Source: Ruegeria marisrubri (GTDB taxonomy: Bacteria > Pseudomonadota > Alphaproteobacteria > Rhodobacterales > Rhodobacteraceae). Taken from it: a stretch of DNA of 64,000 nt. Positions 21,311-32,182 of the stretch are shown piece by piece. The stretch is taken from positions 62,001 through 126,000 of the forward strand of contig NZ_LQBQ01000001.1 of the NCBI RefSeq assembly GCF_001507595.1. The letters are read 5' to 3'. A program made the position numbers and the translations under genes. The notes under the pieces are model-generated. The model did no database searches and was not told the DNA's origin. It was given only the letters and a program-made list of their open reading frames with translations. Numbering within the stretch: position 1 is the first letter of the stretch; each line of letters opens with the position of its first letter.

Positions 21311-21760
21311 TCACAACACGTCCAGCGAGGTCTTGACGCGGTCCATGACAACGGAGGTCTTGAACCGGCTGATATTCGATTCATCAAAGAAATGCGCCTG
21401 AGTGAATTCCTCGTATTCCTTTATGTCCCGCACGGTCAGGATCAGCAGGAAATCTGATTCACCGGTCGTGTAGTAGCATTGCTGCACACATGGCGCGTCG
21501 CGCATCTTGCGCTTGAACGCGTCGAGATGTGCGCGGCTCTCGCGTTCGAGGAGCACTTCGACAATGATCGTCATCTCGCGGCCCAGCTTGCCCGGAGACA
21601 GAACCGCGATTTCACGCTCGATCACGCCTGTTTCCCGCAGCCTCTTCAAGCGTTTCTGCACGGCAGGAGGGGACAGGCCGACATCCTGGCTGATAGCCTC
21701 GGCCGTGAGGCGTGCGTTTGCCTGAATCAGTCGGAGGATCGCGATATCTTTTTCGTCCAT
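21311..21760 (-). CDS. Lrp/AsnC-family transcriptional regulator
   Basis: An Lrp-type regulator with an N-terminal helix-turn-helix (MDEKDIAILRLIQANARLT, then VGLSPPAVQKRLKRL) and a C-terminal RAM ligand domain containing YYTTGESDFLLIL. I start at the ATG at 21760, giving 149 residues; an in-frame ATG at 21805 is possible but neither has a clear ribosome site. Divergent from the M20-DpaL-M24-racemase operon, which it probably controls in response to an amino-acid-like substrate, much as AsnC/DoeX does in ectoine gene clusters. Confidence 0.85.
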   Translation of the reverse strand: MDEKDIAILRLIQANARLTAEAISQDVGLSPPAVQKRLKRLRETGVIEREIAVLSPGKLGREMTIIVEVLLERESRAHLDAFKRKMRDAPCVQQCYYTTGESDFLLILTVRDIKEYEEFTQAHFFDESNISRFKTSVVMDRVKTSLDVL

Positions 21761-21883
21761 GGTATGAAAATCATCCCGATCAAACTGGTTTGCAATGAAT
21801 TTCATCGTCAGCTGATGAGATTATTATGCGCCAAGTAGGAAAAAGGCCCGTAGTGTCGAACGCGAATTATCTTGGGGGAAGAG

Positions 21884-23029
21884 ATGAGCAATCTTCAGGA
21901 ACGGCTGACCGCGCTGCGCAGGGAGTTCCACCGCTTTCCCGAACTCGGATTCCAGGAAACCAGAACCAAGGCGGAGGTTGCGCGCCACTTGCGCGAACTG
22001 GGGCTCGAAGTCCACGAAGGCGTGGGCGTCGTAGGTGTCTTGCGCGCCGGTGAGGGCAATCGCGCCATCGGTCTGCGCGCAGACATGGATGCGCTTCCGA
22101 TCCGCGAAGCGTCTGAACACGACCATGCCTCGCAACATCCGGGCGTCATGCACGCCTGTGGGCACGACGGGCATATGACGATGTTGCTGGGCGCGGCCGA
22201 ACGGCTTGCCCAGGAGCAGGGTTTTGACGGCACGGTGGTCTTGCTGTTCCAGCCCAACGAAGAACACGGGCTTGGCGCGCAAGCAATGATCGACGAAGGC
22301 GTGTTGGAGCAGTTCCCGGTCGAGGAAGTCTATGCCATTCATAACCTGCCGGGCGCGCCGGTCGGTCAGATCTCCACCCGTTCCGGGGTCATCTGCAGCA
22401 GCGAGAGCCTGTTCGAGATCACCATTCAGGGCCGGGGCGGCCATTCCTCGATGCCCCAGGTGGGAGTGGATGCGATAACGGTGGGTGCGGAATTGGTTCT
22501 GGCGCTGCAAACCATCGTCTCCCGCAAGCTTGCGCCGGGGTCGGGCGCCGTGGTTTCCGTGACCGAATTCCTGACGGACGGTCAGCGGAACGTCCTGCCC
22601 GGCAGCGCCGTCATCAAGGGCGACGTACGCGCGCGGCGGCTTGAGGATCGCGCCCAGATCGAAGCCTTCATGCGCCGTATCGCGGCAGGGGTTGCCGCCT
22701 CTCATGGCGTGGAGGCCGATGTCAGCTTCAGGACAGAGTTCGTCGAGGCGATCAACGCCGTGGGGCCGACCGAGGCCGTGTACCGCGCTGCCGAAGCTGC
22801 GGGCTGCGAGGTCATCCGGGACCGCCCGCCCATGAGCTTCTCTGAGGATTTCGCTCATTTCTCGGCCGCCGTTCCCGGTTGCTTCCTGCTTCTGGGGAAT
22901 GGCAAGCAAGGCCCCCACGGCCAGCCGCTGCATTCGGCTGACTATGACTTCAACGATGCACTGCTGACCATCGGCGCCGAATTCTGGGTGCAGCTCGTGC
23001 GTGACCGGCTGCCCATTCGAAAGGACTGA
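21884..23029 (+). CDS. M20-family amidohydrolase (hippurate/N-acyl-amino-acid hydrolase type)
   Basis: A 381-residue M20D-type metallohydrolase that cleaves an N-acyl group from an amino acid. Metal-site motifs: GLRADMDALP, HACGHDGHMTM (Cys and His ligands) and PNEEHGLGA (Glu pair). The start at 21884 follows GGGGGAAGAG. It is the first of four tightly packed genes, 2 bases before a diaminopropionate ammonia-lyase; E. coli ygeX-ygeY is a precedent for pairing these two families. The acyl group and amine are not known. Confidence 0.85.
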   Translation: MSNLQERLTALRREFHRFPELGFQETRTKAEVARHLRELGLEVHEGVGVVGVLRAGEGNRAIGLRADMDALPIREASEHDHASQHPGVMHACGHDGHMTMLLGAAERLAQEQGFDGTVVLLFQPNEEHGLGAQAMIDEGVLEQFPVEEVYAIHNLPGAPVGQISTRSGVICSSESLFEITIQGRGGHSSMPQVGVDAITVGAELVLALQTIVSRKLAPGSGAVVSVTEFLTDGQRNVLPGSAVIKGDVRARRLEDRAQIEAFMRRIAAGVAASHGVEADVSFRTEFVEAINAVGPTEAVYRAAEAAGCEVIRDRPPMSFSEDFAHFSAAVPGCFLLLGNGKQGPHGQPLHSADYDFNDALLTIGAEFWVQLVRDRLPIRKD

Positions 23030-23031
23030 AA

Positions 23032-24225
23032 ATGCTGGATGTATTTACCTGCGGCGCGATCGGACACATCGCCGCAAATCCTTCCAAGGGCGAGGCCGCT
23101 TACCGGGTTCTGTCTCAGGTGGATTTCGACGACGCATGGGCGGAAATCACGTCGTGGGACGGCTATGTTCCCACTCCGCTCGTGGAATTGAGCGGGCTCG
23201 CAGCCAAGATCGGCGTGGATCGGATCGACTACAAGCACGAAGGGCCTCGTTTCGGGCTTGGCAGTTTCAAGGCGCTCGGCGGGTCCTATGCGGCGATGCG
23301 CGTTCTGCAACGGGAACTGGGCAAACGTCTGGGTTGCGACGTCCGATTGGAAGATATCCGCAACGGTGCCTATCGGGATGCCTGTGCCGGGATCACGCTG
23401 GTATCGGCGACCGATGGCAACCACGGCCGGTCGCTGGCCTGGGGCTGCCAGCGGTTTGGTGCCCCTTGCCGCATCTATATTCACGCCGAAGTCAGCGAAG
23501 GCCGCGCCGAAGCCATGCGTGCATTGGGTGCCGAGGTGGTCCGGATCGAGGGCGATTATGACGACTCGGTTCTGCTGGCCAAGCAGGAAGCCGAAAAGAA
23601 CGGCTGGTTCGTGGTCTCGGACACGTCATGGCCGGGCTATGTCGATCCGCCCCGCGATGTGATGGCGGGATACGGGGTCATGACCCGCGAAGCCTGTGAA
23701 GCGTTGGAAAGAGCGCCGACGCATGTCTTCCTGCAAGGCGGCGTCGGCGGGCTTGCGGCCTCGGTGGCTGCTGGCTTGCGACAGCACTACGGCGCGGACG
23801 CGCCGCGCGTCGTCATCGTCGAGCCCGAACTTGCAGCCTGCCTGTTCGAGAGTGCCCGCAACGGCAGGGCGACCAATGTTGCCATTGCAGAGGAAACCAT
23901 CATGGCGGGCTTGTCCTGCGGTGAGCCTTCGGGGCTGGCCTGGGACATCCTCGCCGAAGAGGCATCGGATTTCCTGACCATCCCGGACAGCATCGTCGCC
24001 CCTACGGTCCGCCTGCTGGCCAATGCTGATTACGGCGATCCGCCGGTCGAGGCCGGGGAAAGCGCCGTGGCTGGGCTTGCCGCGCTGATCGCAGCCCGTA
24101 GGAACCCTGAGCTTTCCGCGCGTCTCGGGCTGGACCACAGCTCGCGCGTATTGCTTATCGGATCCGAAGGCGTGACGGATCCCGAGATTTTTTCTGCCAT
24201 CATGAAAGGGGCCGACCGTGTCTGA
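23032..24225 (+). CDS. dpaL: diaminopropionate ammonia-lyase
   Basis: PLP enzyme that converts 2,3-diaminopropionate to pyruvate and two ammonia. In the 397-residue protein the PLP lysine is K80 in RFGLGSFKALGG, a match to the DpaL/YgeX signature rather than to threonine dehydratase. The substrate loop SATDGNHGRS and the glycine-rich phosphate loop QGGVGGLAAS follow. Translated together with both neighbours (2-base gap, then 8-base overlap). The name is based on family similarity; activity on another diamino acid cannot be excluded. Confidence 0.88.
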   Translation: MLDVFTCGAIGHIAANPSKGEAAYRVLSQVDFDDAWAEITSWDGYVPTPLVELSGLAAKIGVDRIDYKHEGPRFGLGSFKALGGSYAAMRVLQRELGKRLGCDVRLEDIRNGAYRDACAGITLVSATDGNHGRSLAWGCQRFGAPCRIYIHAEVSEGRAEAMRALGAEVVRIEGDYDDSVLLAKQEAEKNGWFVVSDTSWPGYVDPPRDVMAGYGVMTREACEALERAPTHVFLQGGVGGLAASVAAGLRQHYGADAPRVVIVEPELAACLFESARNGRATNVAIAEETIMAGLSCGEPSGLAWDILAEEASDFLTIPDSIVAPTVRLLANADYGDPPVEAGESAVAGLAALIAARRNPELSARLGLDHSSRVLLIGSEGVTDPEIFSAIMKGADRV

Positions 24226-25384
24226 GACGCCCGAGCGCGGTTTTCCCGAGGCCGAGTTCGCTGCCCGGACCCGGCGGGCTCAGTCATTGATGGCAGACCG
24301 ACAATTGTCGGGGCTGTTGCTGATGACTGAGCCGGAGGTGCGCTATTTTTCCGGTTTCCACACGCTTTTCTGGCAAAGCCCGACACGGCCTTGGTTCCTG
24401 TTCGTTCCCGCCGAGGGCAAACCCGTCGCCGTGATCCCCGAGATCGGGGCAGCCTTGATGCGGCGCACATGGATCGACGACATCCGGACCTGGAGCGCGC
24501 CGGCCCCAGCGGATGACGGTCTGTCCCTGCTGACCGAGCTTTTGTCGTCACTGGCGGCACGCGGCGACACGATCGGAGTCATGAAGGGGCATGAGACTTC
24601 GCTGCGAATGCCACTGGGCGACTACGAGCGGCTGATGGCGGGATTACCCGGGTTGAAGGTGGCGGATGCAACGGGCCTGATCCGCAGTCTGCGCATGGTC
24701 AAGTCCGAAGCTGAGATCGAAAAGCTTGCCCATATCTGCGCCATCGGTTCGCGTACATTTGCCCAAGTGCCGGCGATGGCACATGAGGGCCTGCCGCTCG
24801 AAGAGCTGTTCCGGGCCTTTCGGCGAGAAGCTTTGGCTCAGGGCGCGGATGACGTGCCCTACCTGGTCGGAGGGGCGGACCAAGGGGGCTATCACGACGT
24901 GATCTCCCCTCCCACGCGGCGGCCGTTGCAGGCGGGCGACATCCTCATGCTGGATACCGGGGCCAGCTGGGACGGCTACTTTTGCGACTTTGACCGCAAC
25001 TATGCCATTGGCCACGCCGACGACCTGTCGCGCCGCGCCTATGACGTTTTGTGGCGGGCAACCGAGGCCGGTGTTGCCGCCGCGCGGCCGGGGGCGACGT
25101 GCCGCGAGTTGTTTCAGGCGATGCGTTCAGTGATTGCCGAAATGGATGATCAAGGGGGTGATGTCGGCCGTCTGGGCCACGGGCTGGGCATGCAACTGAC
25201 CGAGTGGCCCTCGCATGCGGCGTTCGACGAAACGGTTCTCGAGCCGAACATGGTGCTGACCCTGGAGCCCTCGCTCGGCTATGGTGACGGTCGGATCATG
25301 GTGCATGAAGAAAACATCGTGGTGACCGAGAGCGGTGCCAGACTGCTTTCGACCCGTGCCGCCCCGGAACTGCCCGTGATCTGA
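24218..25384 (+). CDS. M24-family aminopeptidase-like hydrolase (Xaa-Pro peptidase / ectoine-hydrolase type)
   Basis: A 388-residue creatinase/M24-fold enzyme. Metal ligands are visible in LDTGASWDGYFCDFDRN (two Asp), HGLGMQLTEWPS (His), LEPSL (Glu) and HEENIV (Glu), so it should be catalytic. Starts with GTG after AAAGGGG and overlaps dpaL by 8 bases. Members of this fold open the ectoine ring (DoeA/EutD) or cut Xaa-Pro bonds; the operon context favours hydrolysis of a small cyclic or acylated diamino acid. Confidence 0.83.
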   Translation: MSETPERGFPEAEFAARTRRAQSLMADRQLSGLLLMTEPEVRYFSGFHTLFWQSPTRPWFLFVPAEGKPVAVIPEIGAALMRRTWIDDIRTWSAPAPADDGLSLLTELLSSLAARGDTIGVMKGHETSLRMPLGDYERLMAGLPGLKVADATGLIRSLRMVKSEAEIEKLAHICAIGSRTFAQVPAMAHEGLPLEELFRAFRREALAQGADDVPYLVGGADQGGYHDVISPPTRRPLQAGDILMLDTGASWDGYFCDFDRNYAIGHADDLSRRAYDVLWRATEAGVAAARPGATCRELFQAMRSVIAEMDDQGGDVGRLGHGLGMQLTEWPSHAAFDETVLEPNMVLTLEPSLGYGDGRIMVHEENIVVTESGARLLSTRAAPELPVI

Positions 25385-25394
25385 GGAGGGTTCG

Positions 25395-26156
25395 GTGAAA
25401 CTGGATTTCGATACGGATGAGGGGTTCGGCAAACGCGCCAGGTTGGGTGTGATCGTGCTCGAAGCCGATGAGACGCTGGAACCGGAGTTCTCGAGAATGA
25501 TGAACTTGGATGGGGTGGCTCTCCATCACAGCCGCATTCCCATGGTCCCGGAAGTGCGGGCGGATACGCTGGCCCAAATGGAAGCCGATCTGCCTGCTTC
25601 CGCTCGCTTGTTGCCGCGCTCACGCGATCTTGACGTGATCGGCTACGGATGCACTTCGGCCGCGACAGTGATCGGGTCCGAGAATGTTGCCCGCGCCATT
25701 CGGACGGTAATCCCAAGCGCCCAGGTCACCGATCCTTTGGCAGCCATCATTGCCGCAGGTCGGACCCTGAAGGCCACCCGGCTGGGCTTCATCACGCCTT
25801 ACTTGCCGGAAGTGTCGCGCAGGATGCGCCAGAGATTGGGAGATGCGGGTTTCGAAATCTCCGGGTTCGGATCCTTCGAGGAAGAAGATGACCGAGTTGT
25901 GGCGCGGATCACCGAAACTGCAATTGTCGCGGCTGCGCTTCGCATTGCCGAAGCGGCACCCTGTGATGCAATCGTCATATCCTGCACCAACCTCCGGTGC
26001 CTTGGGGTCATCCCGGAGATCGAGGAACGGGCCGGTTTGCCCGTGATCTCCAGCAATCAGGCCTTGGCTTGGCACATGCTGCGCCTGGCCGGGGTCGATG
26101 ATGTCAGGCCATCCTTCGGAACGCTGTTTCTGCATGGTCTCGAAACCCGAACCTGA
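25395..26156 (+). CDS. Asp/Glu racemase superfamily protein (maleate isomerase / EutA-like)
   Basis: A 253-residue member of the family containing aspartate racemase, arylmalonate decarboxylase and maleate isomerase. Both expected catalytic cysteines are present: C86 in GYGCTSAA and C197 in SCTNLR. EutA of hydroxyectoine breakdown belongs to the same family. Last gene of the four-gene operon, 10 bases after the M24 gene, convergent with the dehydrogenase gene that follows. Racemisation of a diamino or hydroxy acid before lyase action is my inference. Confidence 0.83.
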   Translation: MKLDFDTDEGFGKRARLGVIVLEADETLEPEFSRMMNLDGVALHHSRIPMVPEVRADTLAQMEADLPASARLLPRSRDLDVIGYGCTSAATVIGSENVARAIRTVIPSAQVTDPLAAIIAAGRTLKATRLGFITPYLPEVSRRMRQRLGDAGFEISGFGSFEEEDDRVVARITETAIVAAALRIAEAAPCDAIVISCTNLRCLGVIPEIEERAGLPVISSNQALAWHMLRLAGVDDVRPSFGTLFLHGLETRT

Positions 26157-26222: not shown

Positions 26223-27329
26223 TCAGGAAAACCGCCGCAGTGCCATTGCCCGCCGGACCCGTTCCTCAGCCATGGCGTTTGCGGCCGCCCGGGGATCCGT
26301 TGCGGTCGAACGGGCGCGCTCCAGAACTTCCCTGGTATTGCGTCTGATCCGTTCCTCGATGACCTGGAATGCCATTTCCTGGCCGCCGCCGCGAAGTTCA
26401 ACGGCGGCGCAGATGACACCGCCGGCATTGGCAATGAAGTCAGGCACAACGAGAATGCCGCGTGCGCGCAGTATGGCCTCTGCCTCGGGAGTTGCAGGGA
26501 TATTGGCGCCTTCCAGAACCAGGCGGGCTTTGATCGCGTCTGCGTTCCCCGCATGGATCGCATCCGGCCGGGCGGCCGGGATCAGGATGTCGCATTCCGC
26601 GGTGAGAGCTGCCTCCGCCGCTTCAATCCGGGCCTTTCTCAAGGCAGTTACGCTTTGGCCATGCCGCTTGAGATTTTCCAGTTCGTCCAGAGGCAGGCCT
26701 TCGGGGTCCAGAATCGTTCCACCGGTGTCCGATACGGCTACCTGTCGCGCGCCCCTTGCGGCGAGAAATCGTGCCGCATGACGCCCGACGGCTCCGAAAC
26801 CCTGAATGGAGACGCGCGCGCCAGAAAGACTGACCCCGCTGATGTCCTGGGCGGTCTCGGCGGCCACTGTCAGACCGAAACCGGTGGCGCCAATCTCATC
26901 GAGGGGAATGCCGCCCAATAGTGCAGGCAGCCCGACCGCGCGTCCGGTTTCTTCGCGGACCCAGGCCATACAGGTTTCGTTGGTGCCCATATCTGGTCCC
27001 GGGACATAACTCTCCAACTCTTGGATTGCATTCGCAAAGGCACGAATGAGAATTTCCTTGTCAGGCTGGGCCATCGCAGGATCCCCCACGATCACCGCCT
27101 TGCCACCGCCATGCGGTAACCCCGCCGCAGCGTTTTTCAGCGTCATCGCCCGTGCTAGCCTGGCGCATTCCTCGAGCGTCACGTCGTTGGCCATGCGGAC
27201 GCCTCCGATTGACGGGCCTGCGGCGACGTTGTCGATGACTACGATGGCCTGCAGGCCAATAGCTGGGTTGCGGACATGCACGATTTTGCCTGGCCCCAGA
27301 TCGTCGGCCAGAGAAAGAAGATCCGTCAT
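26223..27329 (-). CDS. Glu/Leu/Phe/Val dehydrogenase (leucine/valine type)
   Basis: Oxidatively deaminates an amino acid with NAD(P). The 368-residue length and the early GPSIGGVRMA match leucine/valine dehydrogenases rather than the longer glutamate enzymes. Lysines of the active site are K65 (MTLKNA) and K77 (HGGGKAVI), the aspartate sits in PGPDMGT, and the Rossmann loop is IQGFGAVGRH. Its start overlaps the E2 stop as ATGA, so it supplies keto acids to the dehydrogenase complex of the same operon. Last gene of that operon. Confidence 0.88.
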   Translation of the reverse strand: MTDLLSLADDLGPGKIVHVRNPAIGLQAIVVIDNVAAGPSIGGVRMANDVTLEECARLARAMTLKNAAAGLPHGGGKAVIVGDPAMAQPDKEILIRAFANAIQELESYVPGPDMGTNETCMAWVREETGRAVGLPALLGGIPLDEIGATGFGLTVAAETAQDISGVSLSGARVSIQGFGAVGRHAARFLAARGARQVAVSDTGGTILDPEGLPLDELENLKRHGQSVTALRKARIEAAEAALTAECDILIPAARPDAIHAGNADAIKARLVLEGANIPATPEAEAILRARGILVVPDFIANAGGVICAAVELRGGGQEMAFQVIEERIRRNTREVLERARSTATDPRAAANAMAEERVRRAMALRRFS

Positions 27330-28438
27330 GAGAGACCATCCGAATTGCCAAGGGATTTCTTTGCCAAACTCGTACGCAGCGCGTCGAGAAACCGCGCGGC
27401 CTCTCCGCCGGTGACCACGCGATGATCGAAGGTCAGCGACAGCGGCAGGACGCGACAGGGGGTGATCTGTCCATCGACCACGCAGGGTTTCACGTCGATC
27501 CGCCCGGCACCGAGAATGGCGACCTGCGGGGCAGGCACGACCAGCGCGGCGTGTTCGCCCGCCATCATCCCGAAGTTGGACAGCGAGATCGTGGCCCCCT
27601 TGAGGTCTTGCGGCGGAATGCTGCGGTTCTCGACAGCGGACTTGAGGTGTTTCAGCTTTCCGGCAATGTCCGGTTCGCTGTCGGCCGCTCTGAGCACCGG
27701 TGTGAACAGACCCTCGGGCGTGTCCACTGCAATGCCCAGGTCGACATGTTCATGGCGTTGCAAACGGGTTCCATCGAACCAGGCATTCAGGGCTGGCTGG
27801 GCTTGGCACGCCGCAACGATGGCTCCGATGAGGCGCAGCGTCGGGTCCTCCTTCGGCCCCCACGCCCCGATATTGACCTGATCCATGATGGTGGCCGGAA
27901 CCACGCTGGCGTGAGAGCGCGCCATTGCCGAGGCCATCGCCCGGCGCACGCCCCGGAGTTCTTTGCCGGAGGTCTGCTGCGCGGCGGCGGTCACGTCCGA
28001 GGAAAGGATCGTGCCTTCCGGTCCGCTGCCCCGGACAGTGCCGAGGTCCACGTTGAGCTCCCGCGCCAGCCTGCGGACGGCGGGGGCCGCCTGAAGGCGA
28101 GGCGTCGTTGCCTTGGCCTTGACACGGGTGTCTGCGCGGGGGCTGTCTGCCGGTTTCCGAGGGGGGGCGATTTCACCGACAATGGCGCCGGCGTCCTCCT
28201 TTGCGCCAGTGTCGATTTCGACCAGAGGTCCATCGGTCGGCACGATGTCTCCCGGTTCCGCGATGAGGCGCCGGATGGTTCCCGAGTACGGCGCCGGGAT
28301 TTCAACCACGGCCTTGTCCGTCTCCACCGACACCAACGGTTGCTCGGCAATGACATGATCGCCCTCGGCCACATGCCAAGCGACGATTTCGGCCTCTTTC
28401 AGGCCCTCTCCTAGGTCCGGCAGTCTGAAAACGGTCAT
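27326..28438 (-). CDS. bkdB: branched-chain keto-acid dehydrogenase E2 (dihydrolipoyl acyltransferase)
   Basis: Core acyltransferase of a 2-oxo-acid dehydrogenase complex. One lipoyl domain with K42 in ETDKAVVEI, a peripheral-subunit binding domain at about 113-150 (VRRLARELNVDLGTVRGSG) and a catalytic domain ending near residue 350; 370 residues in all. The active-site motif reads DHRVVTGG (H339), with Thr where most E2 proteins have Asp (HxxxDG). Overlaps E1beta and the amino-acid dehydrogenase by 4 bases each. Branched-chain specificity is inferred from the partner dehydrogenase. Confidence 0.88.
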   Translation of the reverse strand: MTVFRLPDLGEGLKEAEIVAWHVAEGDHVIAEQPLVSVETDKAVVEIPAPYSGTIRRLIAEPGDIVPTDGPLVEIDTGAKEDAGAIVGEIAPPRKPADSPRADTRVKAKATTPRLQAAPAVRRLARELNVDLGTVRGSGPEGTILSSDVTAAAQQTSGKELRGVRRAMASAMARSHASVVPATIMDQVNIGAWGPKEDPTLRLIGAIVAACQAQPALNAWFDGTRLQRHEHVDLGIAVDTPEGLFTPVLRAADSEPDIAGKLKHLKSAVENRSIPPQDLKGATISLSNFGMMAGEHAALVVPAPQVAILGAGRIDVKPCVVDGQITPCRVLPLSLTFDHRVVTGGEAARFLDALRTSLAKKSLGNSDGLS

Positions 28439-29415
28439 TCGAACTCCAGCACGTAGTGGACCGCGTCAAGGATGCGGTCGGTCGAAGGCATGTACCGGTC
28501 TTCCAGTCGAAGGTAGGGCATGACCGTGTCATAGCCCGCCACCCGCCGAATCGGGGCGAGAAGGCTGGTCAGGCAGGTCTCGGCCAGGTCCGCCGCGACC
28601 TCGGCGCCGAAACCGCCGGTCAGGGGGGCCTCGTGCACGATCACGCAACGCCCGGTTTTTTCCACCGAGGTGCGCACGGCGGCGCGGTCGTAGGGTTTGA
28701 CCGTTCCAAGGTCGATCACCTCTGCAGAAACCTCGACCTCGGCCAGTTGTCGGGCGGCCTCGAGTGTTTCAACAACCATCGCCCCCCAGGTGACGAGGGT
28801 GACGTCCGCGCCCTCGCGCAGCACAAACGCACTGTCCAGGGGCAGGGCTTCGCCGTTGTCTGCAACCTCTTCCGAGGTGGCCCGGTACAGGCGTTTGGGT
28901 TCGAGGAAAATCACCGGATCCGGGTCGCGGACGGCCGCCAGCAGCAGGCCGTAGGCCCTGGCCGGAGAACTTGGAATGACCACCCGCAGACCGGGCACGT
29001 GCGCCAGCATGGCCTCGGTGCTTTCGGAATGATGCTCGGGGGCCTTGATGCCGCCACCAAAGGGGGCGCGCAGAACCATCGGGCAGCTCAGCCGCCCCCT
29101 CGTACGATTGCGCATGCGCGCGGCGTGGCACACGAGCTGATCGACCGCCGGATAGATGAAGCCCATGAACTGGATCTCGGCCACAGGGCGCAGCCCCTGT
29201 GCCGAAGCGCCAACCGCCAGCCCGGCGATCACTGTCTCCGACAGGGGCGTGTCTCGGACACGGGATGGGCCAAACCGTTGCACGAGGCCTTCGGTGGCTC
29301 GAAATACCCCTCCGTCGATCCCCACATCTTCGCCGAAGATGATGACATCCGGGTCTTCCTCCAGCGCGAAGGCCAGTGCTGCACGGACGGCTTCGATCAT
29401 CGTCATTTCAGCCAT
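28435..29415 (-). CDS. bkdA2: branched-chain keto-acid dehydrogenase E1 beta subunit
   Basis: Beta subunit of the thiamine-dependent E1. The 326-residue protein has the classic EDVGIDGGVFRAT and DTPLSETVIAGLAVG segments and the HHSESTEAMLAHVPGLRVV block. I start at the ATG at 29415, with GGAGG upstream, which overlaps the end of E1alpha by 8 bases; a longer frame opening upstream lies inside E1alpha. Ends in an ATGA overlap with E2. Confidence 0.9.
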   Translation of the reverse strand: MAEMTMIEAVRAALAFALEEDPDVIIFGEDVGIDGGVFRATEGLVQRFGPSRVRDTPLSETVIAGLAVGASAQGLRPVAEIQFMGFIYPAVDQLVCHAARMRNRTRGRLSCPMVLRAPFGGGIKAPEHHSESTEAMLAHVPGLRVVIPSSPARAYGLLLAAVRDPDPVIFLEPKRLYRATSEEVADNGEALPLDSAFVLREGADVTLVTWGAMVVETLEAARQLAEVEVSAEVIDLGTVKPYDRAAVRTSVEKTGRCVIVHEAPLTGGFGAEVAADLAETCLTSLLAPIRRVAGYDTVMPYLRLEDRYMPSTDRILDAVHYVLEFE

Positions 29416-30472
29416 CGCCCAATTCCTCCGCCTGTCGCGCCAGATCGCGGGGCAAGCTTTCGAACAGGTTGGCAAGCATCTCCCCCGCCGGTTCGGGAGG
29501 CGTGGCCAGATAGTTTTCGGCGGCCTGGTCCACCTCTTCACGGCATGTGCGCAAAAGCGCCTCTTCGTCCGCCTTGCTCCAGCCATGCACCTGGGTCAGG
29601 TGGCGGCGCAGGCGGACCAGTGGCTCCTTCTTCCATTGGGCGCTCACTTCGTCGTCATCGCGATAGCGGCTGGCATCATCGGCAGTCGTATGATCGCCCA
29701 GCCGGTAGGTGACGCATTCTATCAAAGTCCCGCCCTGACCGGACCTTGCCCGTTCCAGCGCCCTTTCGGTCGCTTCGCGCACCGCGATCACGTCATTGCC
29801 GTCGACCTGCTCGCCCGGCAGGCCGCAGGCAACGGCCTTTTGCGCCAATGTCTGCGCAGCCGTTTGGTCCTGACGCCGCACCGAAATGGACCATTGGTTG
29901 TTGTTGAGCACAAAGACCGCCGGCAGGTTCCACGCCCCGACCAGGTTCAAGGCCTCGTAAAAATCGCCTTTCGACGTCGCGCCGTCTCCTCCGACCGCGA
30001 CAGCGACCCCCGGCACCCCTTTGTGAACCAGGGCCAGTGCTGCCCCCGCCGCATGCGGGAAATGCGTGCCGACTGGTATGCAGACCGGAAAATCACGTTT
30101 GGGAAGCGAAAAATCATTCCCGCGTTCGTCACCGCCCCAAAAGAGAAACAGCTCTTCCAGAGTGACGCCCCGGATCAATTGCGCTCCATGCTCGCGGAAT
30201 GACGGCAGGAAAACATCCGTGGGCGCCATGGCGCTTGCCACCCCGACGCCAACAGCCTCTTGTCCCAGGCTGGAGGCATAGGTGCCCAAACGCCCGGTGC
30301 GCTGCAACGCGACCGCCTTGGAGTCGAAGGTCCGGCATCTGACCATCGCCGAATACAGGGCAACAAGAGTGTCGCGGCTTTTCGCAAAATCGGGCAACTC
30401 GCGCAGAAGGGTTCCTTCTGCATCAAGGTAGGCACCCGGATCGGTCGTCCTTGTCTGGCGGGTTCTGGCCAT
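29408..30472 (-). CDS. bkdA1: branched-chain keto-acid dehydrogenase E1 alpha subunit
   Basis: Alpha subunit of E1, decarboxylating the 2-oxo acid on thiamine diphosphate. The ThDP/Mg motif runs from GGDGATSKGDFYEALN to LNNNQWSIS; GRLGTYASSLGQEAVGVG is the family's substrate-entry segment. At 354 residues it is of the two-subunit E1 class. It follows the acyl-CoA synthetase by 3 bases. No E3 (lpd) gene accompanies the operon. Confidence 0.9.
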   Translation of the reverse strand: MARTRQTRTTDPGAYLDAEGTLLRELPDFAKSRDTLVALYSAMVRCRTFDSKAVALQRTGRLGTYASSLGQEAVGVGVASAMAPTDVFLPSFREHGAQLIRGVTLEELFLFWGGDERGNDFSLPKRDFPVCIPVGTHFPHAAGAALALVHKGVPGVAVAVGGDGATSKGDFYEALNLVGAWNLPAVFVLNNNQWSISVRRQDQTAAQTLAQKAVACGLPGEQVDGNDVIAVREATERALERARSGQGGTLIECVTYRLGDHTTADDASRYRDDDEVSAQWKKEPLVRLRRHLTQVHGWSKADEEALLRTCREEVDQAAENYLATPPEPAGEMLANLFESLPRDLARQAEELGDG

Positions 30473-30475
30473 GGT

Positions 30476-32182
30476 CTAGTGCGCCTTCTTTTTCAACTCC
30501 CTTGCCATGATTTCGCGCATGACGAATTTTTGCACTTTGCCCGTGGCGGTCAAAGGAAATTCGTCTACGAACCTGATATATCGCGGAATCTTGAAATGGG
30601 CGATCTTGCCCCGGCAGAAGTCCCGAATTGCTTCTTCGGTTACGCTGTGACCTTCACGCAGCTTGATCCAGGCGCAAACTTCTTCGCCGTATTTCTCATC
30701 CGGCGCTCCGATCACCTCGACCTGTTCGATGGCCGGATGTGTATAGAGAAAGTCTTCGATTTCACGGGGGAAGATGTTCTCGCCGCCCCGGATGAGCATG
30801 TCCTTGATGCGCCCGACGATCTGGACATAGCCTTCGTCATCCATCATGGCGATATCGCCGCTGGCGATCCAGCGCGCCTCGTCGATCGCCGTGGCGGTTT
30901 TCTCGGGGTCGTTCCAGTATCGCAGCATCACGCAGTAACCGCGGGTGAGCAATTCGCCCGCAACGCCACGCGGCGTGATGCGGCCTTCGGTGTCGACGAT
31001 CTTGATTTCGGTGTGCGGCAGAACCCGGCCAACGGTTTCGACCCTGCGGTACACCGGATCGTCGACCGAGGTCTGAGTGCTGACCGGCCCGGTTTCCGTC
31101 ATACCGTACGCAATGGTGATCTCGGTCATGTGCATCTCGTCCATGATGCGCTTCATCAATTCGACCGGGCAGGGCGCTCCGGCGATGATACCGGTGCGCA
31201 GGTGCGACAGGTCTCGGTCGGCAAAGCCCGGCGTATCCAGCGCCGCGATGAACATGGTCGGCACGCCGTGAAAGACCGTGCAACGCTCGGCTTCGGTGAC
31301 CGCCATCGCCGCTTCCGCGTCGAACCCGGCCGAGGCGAACACCATCGTTGCGCCATGCGCGACGCAGCAGAGCGTGCCCAGCACCATCCCGAAGCAATGA
31401 TACATGGGCACAGGGATGCACATGCGATCCCGGTGCGTCAGCCGCATCTGGACGCCGGTGAAATAGGCATTGTTGACGATGTTGTGGTGAGTCAGCGTCG
31501 CGGCCTTGGGCTTGCCGGTGGTCCCGCTGGTAAACTGAATGTTGATAGGATCATCGAATTGCAGAACTTCCGCGAGTTCCCGAACGGTTTGGCGCGTCCG
31601 GTCGTCGGCTCGCGCCAATACGTCCTTGTAGGTGATCGCCCCATGCAGAGCTTGGTCGGCCAGCGTGATAACCCATTTCAGGCTCGGAACCCGTTTGGCC
31701 TTCAACTGCCCGGGCGGGCTGCCTTCCGACAGTTCCGGCATCAGTTCGGTCAGCATTTCGGCGTAGTTGCTGCTTTTGAAACGCGGCAACAGAACCAGCG
31801 CTTTGGCCTCGACCTGGTTCAGGGCATATTCCAGCTCTGACAGACGATAGGCCGGGTTGATGTTGACGAGGATGAGGCCCGCTTTCGCGCTGGCGAACTG
31901 CAGCACAACCCATTCGGCCATATTCGGGGCCCAGATCCCAATCCTGTCACCCGGTTCGAGTCCCAGTGAGACCAATCCGGCAGCGGCCTCATCCACGTGA
32001 TGTCCCAACTCCGCATAGTTCCATCGCACGCCCTGATAGGGCACGACCAGTGCGTCGTTGTCGGAGAATGTTGAAACCGTACGCTCGAACACGGCGCCGA
32101 TGGTCAATCCCATCAAGGGCGTCGCCGATGCTCCGTGCGCATAGCTTGCTCTCGTTTCCTGGGGTGTGACGCTTGCAGGCAT
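30476..32182 (-). CDS. AMP-forming acyl-CoA synthetase
   Basis: Activates a carboxylic acid to its CoA thioester through an acyl-adenylate. In the 568-residue protein the ATP loop is [13 protein letters not shown], the mid-motif AYGMTETGP, the hinge [16 protein letters not shown], and the catalytic lysine lies in [14 protein letters not shown] near the end. First gene of the leftward keto-acid dehydrogenase operon, suggesting a short or branched fatty acid substrate. Promoter presumably in the 191 bases to its right, where I see no distinct operator. Confidence 0.88.

Follow-up and report, generated by a model that had tools for sequence, protein, structure and literature searches.

Architecture of the locus

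We analysed a window of 64,000 nucleotides from Ruegeria marisrubri (Rhodobacteraceae; NCBI RefSeq assembly GCF_001507595.1, contig NZ_LQBQ01000001.1, positions 62,001 to 126,000 of the forward strand), with the focus on a putative diamino-acid catabolic operon at window positions 21311-26156. An original prediction, made from the sequence alone, described an Lrp regulator divergent from a tight operon of four genes that encode an M20 deacylase, a diaminopropionate ammonia-lyase (DpaL), an M24 hydrolase and a racemase-like protein, here termed RAC. The open reading frames (ORFs) and the family assignments, made with NCBIfam and Pfam models and their cut-offs, bear this arrangement out, and all five ORFs lie where they had been placed:

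21311-21805, minus strand: Lrp/AsnC-family regulator (Pfam AsnC_trans_reg and HTH_24), divergent from the operon
21872-23029, plus strand: M20-type amidohydrolase/deacylase (matches to TIGR01891 and NF038260)
23032-24225, plus strand: DpaL-family pyridoxal phosphate (PLP) lyase of class 1 (motif TDGNHG; K80 and the equivalents of D120 and D189 of E. coli), assigned by NF006058, structure 4d9g, residues and tree
24218-25384, plus strand: M24-fold enzyme with a creatinase N domain; metal site intact, T328 where PepP and PepQ have His
25395-26156, plus strand: RAC, EutA-like (arylmalonate decarboxylase/maleate isomerase/EutA branch), assigned by TIGR02990, tree and fold; C86 and C197

The genes are closely spaced, with 2 bases between the M20 and lyase genes, an overlap of 8 bases between the lyase and M24 genes, and 10 bases between M24 and RAC. 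The longest ORF was used throughout, hence some translations extend past the likely start; for the M20 gene, the ATG at 21884, behind GGGGGA, is probably a likelier start than 21872.

A conserved module

The operon is a conserved module and not a chance association of genes. The search for the same neighbourhood in other Rhodobacteraceae, which had been proposed as a check, was carried out on the loci of the best 80 of 169 RAC relatives. Within the identity limits used, the M24 gene is present in 71 of these 80 loci, the M20 gene in 39, the window-type lyase in 33 and an Lrp relative (at least 40% identity) in 43; the trio of M20, window-type DpaL and M24 recurs in 21. Across 199 genomes of the family, the module M24 (E value 1e-90 or better) occurs in 100, and in at least 82 genomes it adjoins a EutA-family gene. 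The loci include one in Arthrobacter (L061, Actinomycetota), where an M24-RAC pair is accompanied by a DpaL relative (36%), and one in an Ectothiorhodospiraceae metagenome-assembled genome (MAG; L086), where the order is lyase-M20-M24-RAC. The conserved heart of the module consists of RAC, M24 and a DpaL-family PLP lyase, to which the version in our window adds the M20 enzyme and the Lrp regulator.

Counts over 120 loci, given below, combine these 80 loci with 40 regions hand-picked, not at random, from the 100 module-bearing genomes; three of the 40 (G021, G075 and G128) were chosen with EutC-like genes known nearby. A further 20 regions stand outside the 120-locus counts, and two of them (G031 and G193) were taken in the knowledge that DoeA-like genes were near. 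The layouts of L147, L154, L158 and L166 are largely alike.

Parts of the module also occur in other settings. M24-RAC pairs lie amid cobalamin-biosynthesis-type genes in L057, L058 and L060 (a CobQ/CbiA-like amidotransferase and CobD/CbiB, the families being taken from L058 only). Three Neomegalonema MAGs (L083, L084 and L087) have a RAC relative that is not accompanied by M24 and comes after a protein of one sequence cluster; this protein is 531 residues long in L083 (L083:8394-9989) and has no Pfam match at E 1e-8.

RAC as a sister group of canonical EutA in the sampled rows

Both cysteines noted in the original prediction are present, C86 and C197, and Cys occupies these positions in all 41 aligned RAC and EutA rows. 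The best family match of RAC is EutA (TIGR02990), at 199 bits and below the cut-off of 318. In a tree of these 41 rows, the nine canonical EutA proteins make up a single supported clade, next to which stands one further EutA-like row. A supported branch separates canonical EutA from the module RACs and four relatives without M24, which are its sister group in the sampled rows. A structure model of RAC (mean predicted local distance difference test score, pLDDT, 85.6) matches maleate isomerase with Z 30.0 (2.1 Å over 231 residues) and arylmalonate decarboxylase with Z 28, compared with Z 18-19 for hydantoin/allantoin racemases and Z 13-17 for Asp/Glu racemases. Sequence and fold put RAC in the group of EutA, arylmalonate decarboxylase and maleate isomerase (Z 26-30) and not in that of the Asp/Glu racemases among the matches listed, and its description as an Asp/Glu-type racemase is not supported.

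Two classes of DpaL-family lyase

The window lyase scores well above the cut-off of the diaminopropionate ammonia-lyase model NF006058 (479 bits, cut-off 276), lies below that of the stricter equivalog TIGR03528 (322 bits, cut-off 532) and matches structure 4d9g with 237 bits. Among 84 of the 86 module lyase ORFs, two short ones being omitted, 35 are of the window type (class 1, motif TDGNHG), and equivalents of E. coli DpaL Lys77, Asp120 and Asp189 are present in every one of them, the window's included; the lysine singled out in the original prediction, K80, aligns with Lys77. The other 49 (class 2, motif SAGNHG) all have Ala for Asp120 and keep Lys77 and Asp189. Six EutB proteins and TdcB have Thr or Ala at position 120 and a gap at 189.

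A lyase tree of 42 rows, with 34 of the 86 ORFs, unites class 2 as one supported clade and places class 1 with E. coli YgeX (support 87/89, not starred), although the long branches of YgeX and TdcB make the detail nearby unsure. The six EutB proteins group with TdcB, far from the module lyases, and both module classes lie with YgeX. On these sequence criteria, the two lyase classes are both assigned to the DpaL family and neither to EutB.

If the aspartates of DpaL serve as the two bases of a two-base mechanism, class 2 should use one enantiomer only, and such single-enantiomer action would go well with a partner enzyme able to invert the configuration. In the excerpted text of PMC4000059, Lys77 and Asp120 are put forward as potentially catalytic. 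2,3-Diaminopropionate is a possible substrate of class 1; as the end substrate of the operon, the role given to it in the original prediction, it is not established, many relatives filling the slot with a class 2 lyase that lacks one of the DpaL aspartates.

An M24-fold enzyme with the metal site but without the peptidase histidines

The five metal ligands recognized earlier in the M24 protein (D246, D257, H321, E350 and E364, window numbering) are present and are kept in 110 of 110 module M24s, counted from 113 clustered proteins with three of 330 residues or fewer omitted. The further proposal that the protein is a DoeA/EutD-like ring hydrolase fails: it scores 51 bits on the DoeA model TIGR02993, against a cut-off of 613. 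In a phylogeny of 51 rows in which long branches meet, the 27 module M24s sampled from the 113 occupy one side of a supported branch (100/99), with DoeA, DoeA-like proteins and a second M24-family protein outside. Glu, Pro, Tyr, Met and Thr occupy the five ligand positions in 15 of 15 DoeA and DoeA-like proteins. The reading of the module M24 as an ectoine hydrolase was rejected on account of the separate clade and the different active site.

The sequences closest to the window M24 are Xaa-Pro dipeptidases and their kin (4ege, dipeptidase PepE, 114 bits). M24 peptidases (PepP, PepQ, Xaa-Pro dipeptidases) have the fold (Z 31-40) and the five metal ligands in common with it, but the PepP/PepQ histidines, which are catalytic in M24 peptidases, are replaced in 110 of 110 module M24s: the positions of E. 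coli PepP H350 and H361 hold Gly and Thr. PepP R404 is replaced by Met, Leu or Ile, while the place of H243 is an alignment gap. A structure model (pLDDT 84.8) matches Xaa-Pro dipeptidase (Z 40.5; 2.3 Å over 368 residues), DoeA (Z 40.2; 2.3 Å over 370 residues) and creatinase (Z 38.0) about equally, so the fold cannot tell the reaction. Judged by its residues, the module M24 is not a typical peptidase, nor is it a hydrolase of the DoeA type.

The second M24-family protein (L053:16061-17263, L158:897-2162 and relatives), found with Pot-type ATP-binding cassette (ABC) transporter genes in several loci, has the reverse pattern, with the metal Asp changed to Asn/Ala and the His equivalent to PepP H361 kept (7 of 7 rows).

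The M20 enzyme is not YgeY

The M20 protein scores 315 bits on TIGR01891 (cut-off 154). Its top-scoring name is DoeB2, an N2-acetyl-diaminobutanoate deacetylase (NF038260), at 323 bits and below the cut-off of 550. The E. coli ygeWXY genes likewise place a DpaL-family lyase beside an M20 enzyme, and YgeX and YgeY act in uric acid breakdown according to the excerpts of PMC12507026 on the reductive uric acid pathway. The window M20 belongs to another subfamily, with 30 bits on the YgeY model NF009555 (cut-off 321) and 18% identity to E. coli YgeY. This disposes of the label "ygeXY-like" given to the operon, and a uric acid reading was rejected on the same grounds. No carbamoyltransferase or hydantoinase was found among the annotated genes around the operon.

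Ectoine-type genes beside the module

A connection with ectoine metabolism had been suggested, and relatives do carry DoeA, DoeB, EutB, EutC, ectABC or ectoine-type transporters by the module. Reference genes were those of the canonical cluster L132 (EnuR, UehP, EutA, EutB, EutC, DoeA, DoeB, Ssd, Atf), in which EutA, EutC, DoeA and DoeB exceed their family cut-offs and EnuR, UehP, EutB, Ssd and Atf are named by position and published gene orders. An ectoine-type neighbour is present in 19 of the 120 loci, including L147, L154 and L158, which were fetched for a known nearby EutC-like gene.

Several layouts join the module to breakdown genes. L062 has the order lyase-M24-RAC-DoeA-DoeB, with DoeA (756 bits) and DoeB (559 bits) over cut-off; in L079, lyase-M24-RAC is followed by a Pot-type ABC transporter, a second M24, Lrp, DoeA, DoeB and Atf. 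A window-type lyase-M24-RAC in L033 has Atf and a partial DoeB on the opposite strand, L052 has DoeA-like and ArgE-like pieces 5' of a window-type operon, and in L188 a window-type M20-lyase-M24-RAC is accompanied by DoeA, the second M24 and a Pot-type binding protein. ArgE-like, DoeA-like, EutB, EutC, Atf, lyase and M24 genes are clustered in L147, L154 and L158, with RAC adjoining M24. Synthesis genes occur in L175, where ectABC-ask is followed on the same strand by lyase-M24-RAC, and in L148, where about 8 kb separates M24 from ectC and a partial ectB.

Transporter genes (of the tripartite ATP-independent periplasmic (TRAP), Ehu and Pot types) accompany the module in 23 of 120 loci. Six of the 80 loci (L009, L014, L017, L019, L020 and L022) have a TRAP-type binding protein resembling the one in L014. 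The L014 protein matches 3fxb (224 bits), 3gyy (220 bits) and 2vpn (208 bits), which we take to be ectoine binders, followed by 4pfi (188 bits) and the rest at 114 bits or less. In L067, an ABC transporter with an EhuB-type binding protein precedes lyase-M24-RAC and a partial Atf; this protein scores 282 bits against 2q88, presumably EhuB, with the next match at 73 bits.

L079 has an agmatinase-family gene close to the module (L079:3985-4983), and the sequence cluster of this gene recurs in L059, L065, L149, L154, L160 and L165; at E 1e-60 the L154 member has no NCBIfam match. The gene hints that a guanidino compound might also serve as substrate.

The genome of R. marisrubri and its family

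On contig C3 (L130) of the R. marisrubri genome, ask-ectC-ectB-ectA lies directly beside a DoeA-like gene, an ArgE-like M20 gene and an aminotransferase gene. The DoeA-like gene (583 bits, cut-off 613) stands between the ArgE-like M20 (468 bits, cut-off 412) and the aminotransferase, which is truncated at the contig edge, and C3 carries genes for ectoine synthesis and probably for ectoine breakdown side by side. A second DoeA-like gene (514 bits) is on C34. RAC is the sole EutA-family match of the genome, in which we found neither DoeB (E 1e-70) nor EutC (E 1e-80) nor EctD (E 1e-60), while the best EutB match, at 207 bits, is below the cut-off of 413. The pathway is probably split here, with ring opening and deacetylation on C3 and the module on C1, to judge from those relatives that have both sets together.

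Co-occurrence was counted over 100 module-bearing and 99 other genomes of the family, uncorrected for descent. A DoeA-like gene (E 1e-130 or better) is present in 83 of 100 module-bearing genomes against 49 of 99 others (odds ratio 5.0, Fisher p 6e-7), and M24 and the DoeA-like gene lie within 10 kb in 6 of the 83, against 0.4 expected under uniform placement (p 4e-6).

The genes that flank the operon in the window are of other kinds. Those annotated upstream by NCBIfam/Pfam encode DUF1365, MFS, DUF3833 and short-chain dehydrogenase proteins. Downstream, the minus strand (26223-32182) encodes an ELFV dehydrogenase of the Glu/Leu type, an E2 acyltransferase and an acyl-CoA ligase; two ORFs inside this stretch resemble E1 subunits by eye, and the set recalls a branched-chain keto-acid route.

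Proposed function and its alternatives

What stands of the original interpretation is that the operon is conserved and probably catabolic, includes EutA-like and DpaL parts and has a connection with ectoine; the ygeXY, DoeA-like M24 and Asp/Glu racemase labels find no support. Our data make it probable that the module belongs to ectoine-type metabolism. With somewhat less assurance, we favour an accessory catabolic module for ectoine-type compounds, most likely diamino acids derived from 5-hydroxyectoine; the substrate, the order of steps and the reactions are those that we infer from the genes. 5-Hydroxyectoine itself is a tentative choice of substrate, favoured because EutA, EutB and EutC, which parts of the module resemble, are reported to be needed for its use, with precise activities uncertain (PMC8739950, in excerpt). 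Earlier proposals on the use of 5-hydroxyectoine appear in the available part of PMC5924519.

In the proposed scheme, the ring of ectoine or 5-hydroxyectoine would be opened by a DoeA-like hydrolase encoded elsewhere, on C3 in R. marisrubri, and the acetyl group would be removed by the M20 enzyme, the ArgE-like enzyme of C3 or both. The resulting (hydroxy)diamino acid would be inverted or isomerised by RAC, M24 would act on this intermediate in a metal-dependent step other than peptidase cleavage, and the lyase would eliminate the beta substituent, amino or hydroxyl, to give a 2-oxo acid and ammonia. Stated in full, this could be an undescribed ectoine-type branch, present in about half of the sampled family genomes, in which an EutA-like isomerase, an M24 enzyme with a new reaction in place of peptidase chemistry and a DpaL-family lyase convert 5-hydroxyectoine-derived 3-hydroxy-2,4-diaminobutyrate to a 2-oxo acid and ammonia; in this specific form we regard the idea as speculative and rather unlikely to be right in every part.

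Several observations weigh against an ectoine-type function. Ectoine-type neighbours occur in just 19 of 120 loci, three of them preselected, and 17 of 100 module-bearing genomes are without a DoeA-like gene at E 1e-130. No positive association was found with DoeB (over cut-off, 10 of 100 against 18 of 99, p 0.11), with EutC (23 against 14 at E 1e-80, p 0.14; 3 against 9 over cut-off, p 0.08) or with EctC (35 of 100 against 27 of 99, p 0.28), and EctD is absent at E 1e-60 from 193 of the 199 genomes, our own included. Because there is no association with DoeB or EutC, dependence of the module on the classical pathway is weakened. EutB and EutC coexist with the module in L147, L154 and L158, so it is not a mere replacement for them, and a plain EutABC substitute was rejected for this reason. 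The commonest linked transporter is the Pot-type ABC system (16 of 120 loci); the nearest solved relative of its binding protein, 8jv1, is named spermidine/putrescine-binding, and no ligand for 8jv1 was found in open-licence PubMed Central (PMC) papers. Finally, the window lyase retains the residues of E. coli DpaL.

The alternative that fares best, though we consider it unlikely, is a narrower form of the original prediction: the operon would salvage N-acylated or otherwise masked 2,3-diaminopropionate, with M20 unmasking it, RAC setting the configuration and DpaL yielding pyruvate and two ammonia, and ectoine genes would adjoin it since both routes handle diamino acids. The 479 bits of the window lyase on the diaminopropionate ammonia-lyase model, the K77, D120 and D189 equivalents in all 35 class 1 enzymes and their grouping with YgeX and not with EutB or TdcB support it. 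However, the M20 enzyme is not YgeY, the Ala at D120 in the class 2 lyases of many relatives (49 of 49) means that the strict route is not conserved, and the DoeA, EutB, EutC and ectABC neighbours are left unexplained; in addition, none of the genes examined near the operon was seen to be a source of 2,3-diaminopropionate.

Another possibility, which we consider improbable, is that the module clears away by-products or stereoisomers that arise in ectoine biosynthesis, namely mis-made or damaged rings and open-chain acetyl-diaminobutyrates. Such a role would fit the single-strand run of ectABC-ask and lyase-M24-RAC in L175, the ectC and partial ectB near M24 in L148, and the R. marisrubri genome, which has ectABC on C3 while EctD, EutC and DoeB are absent at the limits used and EutB has no match over cut-off; but 65 of 100 module-bearing genomes are without EctC, and the transporter genes in 23 of 120 loci point to outside substrates. 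We give similarly little credence to a unit, unrelated to ectoine, that would use dipeptides or modified amino acids in general by means of a prolidase-type M24: the resemblance of M24 to Xaa-Pro dipeptidases (4ege, 114 bits), its five metal ligands and the 101 of 120 loci without an ectoine-type neighbour speak for it, but all 110 module M24s are without the PepP H350 and H361 equivalents, with H243 in a gap, and the EutA kinship and the DoeA/EutBC/ectABC linkage would go unexplained.

Relation to known ectoine clusters

The favoured assignment to ectoine-type catabolism places the module beside the eutABCDE/doeABCDX clusters of Ruegeria pomeroyi, Sinorhizobium meliloti and Halomonas elongata. 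These likewise combine an AsnC/Lrp regulator, a EutA relative, a fold-type II PLP lyase, an M24-fold protein and a deacylase, and their ectoine-type transporters and Atf aminotransferase are matched in relatives of the module. In contrast to those clusters, the module lyase is of the DpaL family and not EutB, the module M24 keeps its metal site and is not DoeA, and the window operon is without EutC and DoeB, with an M20 enzyme in DoeB's place. The excerpted part of PMC7192451 describes a DoeB just 22% identical to Halomonas DoeB.

Putative ectoine clusters of Gram-positive bacteria (eutB, eutC, eutD, atf, abgB), as described in the accessible text of PMC13188858, are built from similar parts, among them the amidohydrolase abgB and an additional M24 homologue by eutA and eutB. 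They are from Bacillota and tentative, their authors name the lyase EutB and the M24 protein EutD, and the likeness is by description only; judged from that text, they may be related to the module. Apart from these clusters, our search of open-licence PMC papers, as far as their text was available, found no description of the module, and looking there for a diaminopropionate-ectoine link or for EutA and M24 in ectoine clusters brought up no account of this operon.

Biological implications

Ectoines are nutrients for marine bacteria, and the action of EutA, EutB and EutC on 5-hydroxyectoine is stated to be uncertain in the excerpts of PMC8739950. The widespread pair of a EutA relative and an M24-fold enzyme whose active site is not of the peptidase type, with its links to ectoine genes and a DpaL-family lyase, provides named proteins and residues for testing 5-hydroxyectoine chemistry. 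It also calls for caution in annotation, as such M24 genes should not be read as ectoine hydrolases or peptidases. Most carriers of the module are marine bacteria related to Rhodobacter and Ruegeria, in which it probably aids the breakdown of ectoine-type salt-stress compounds.

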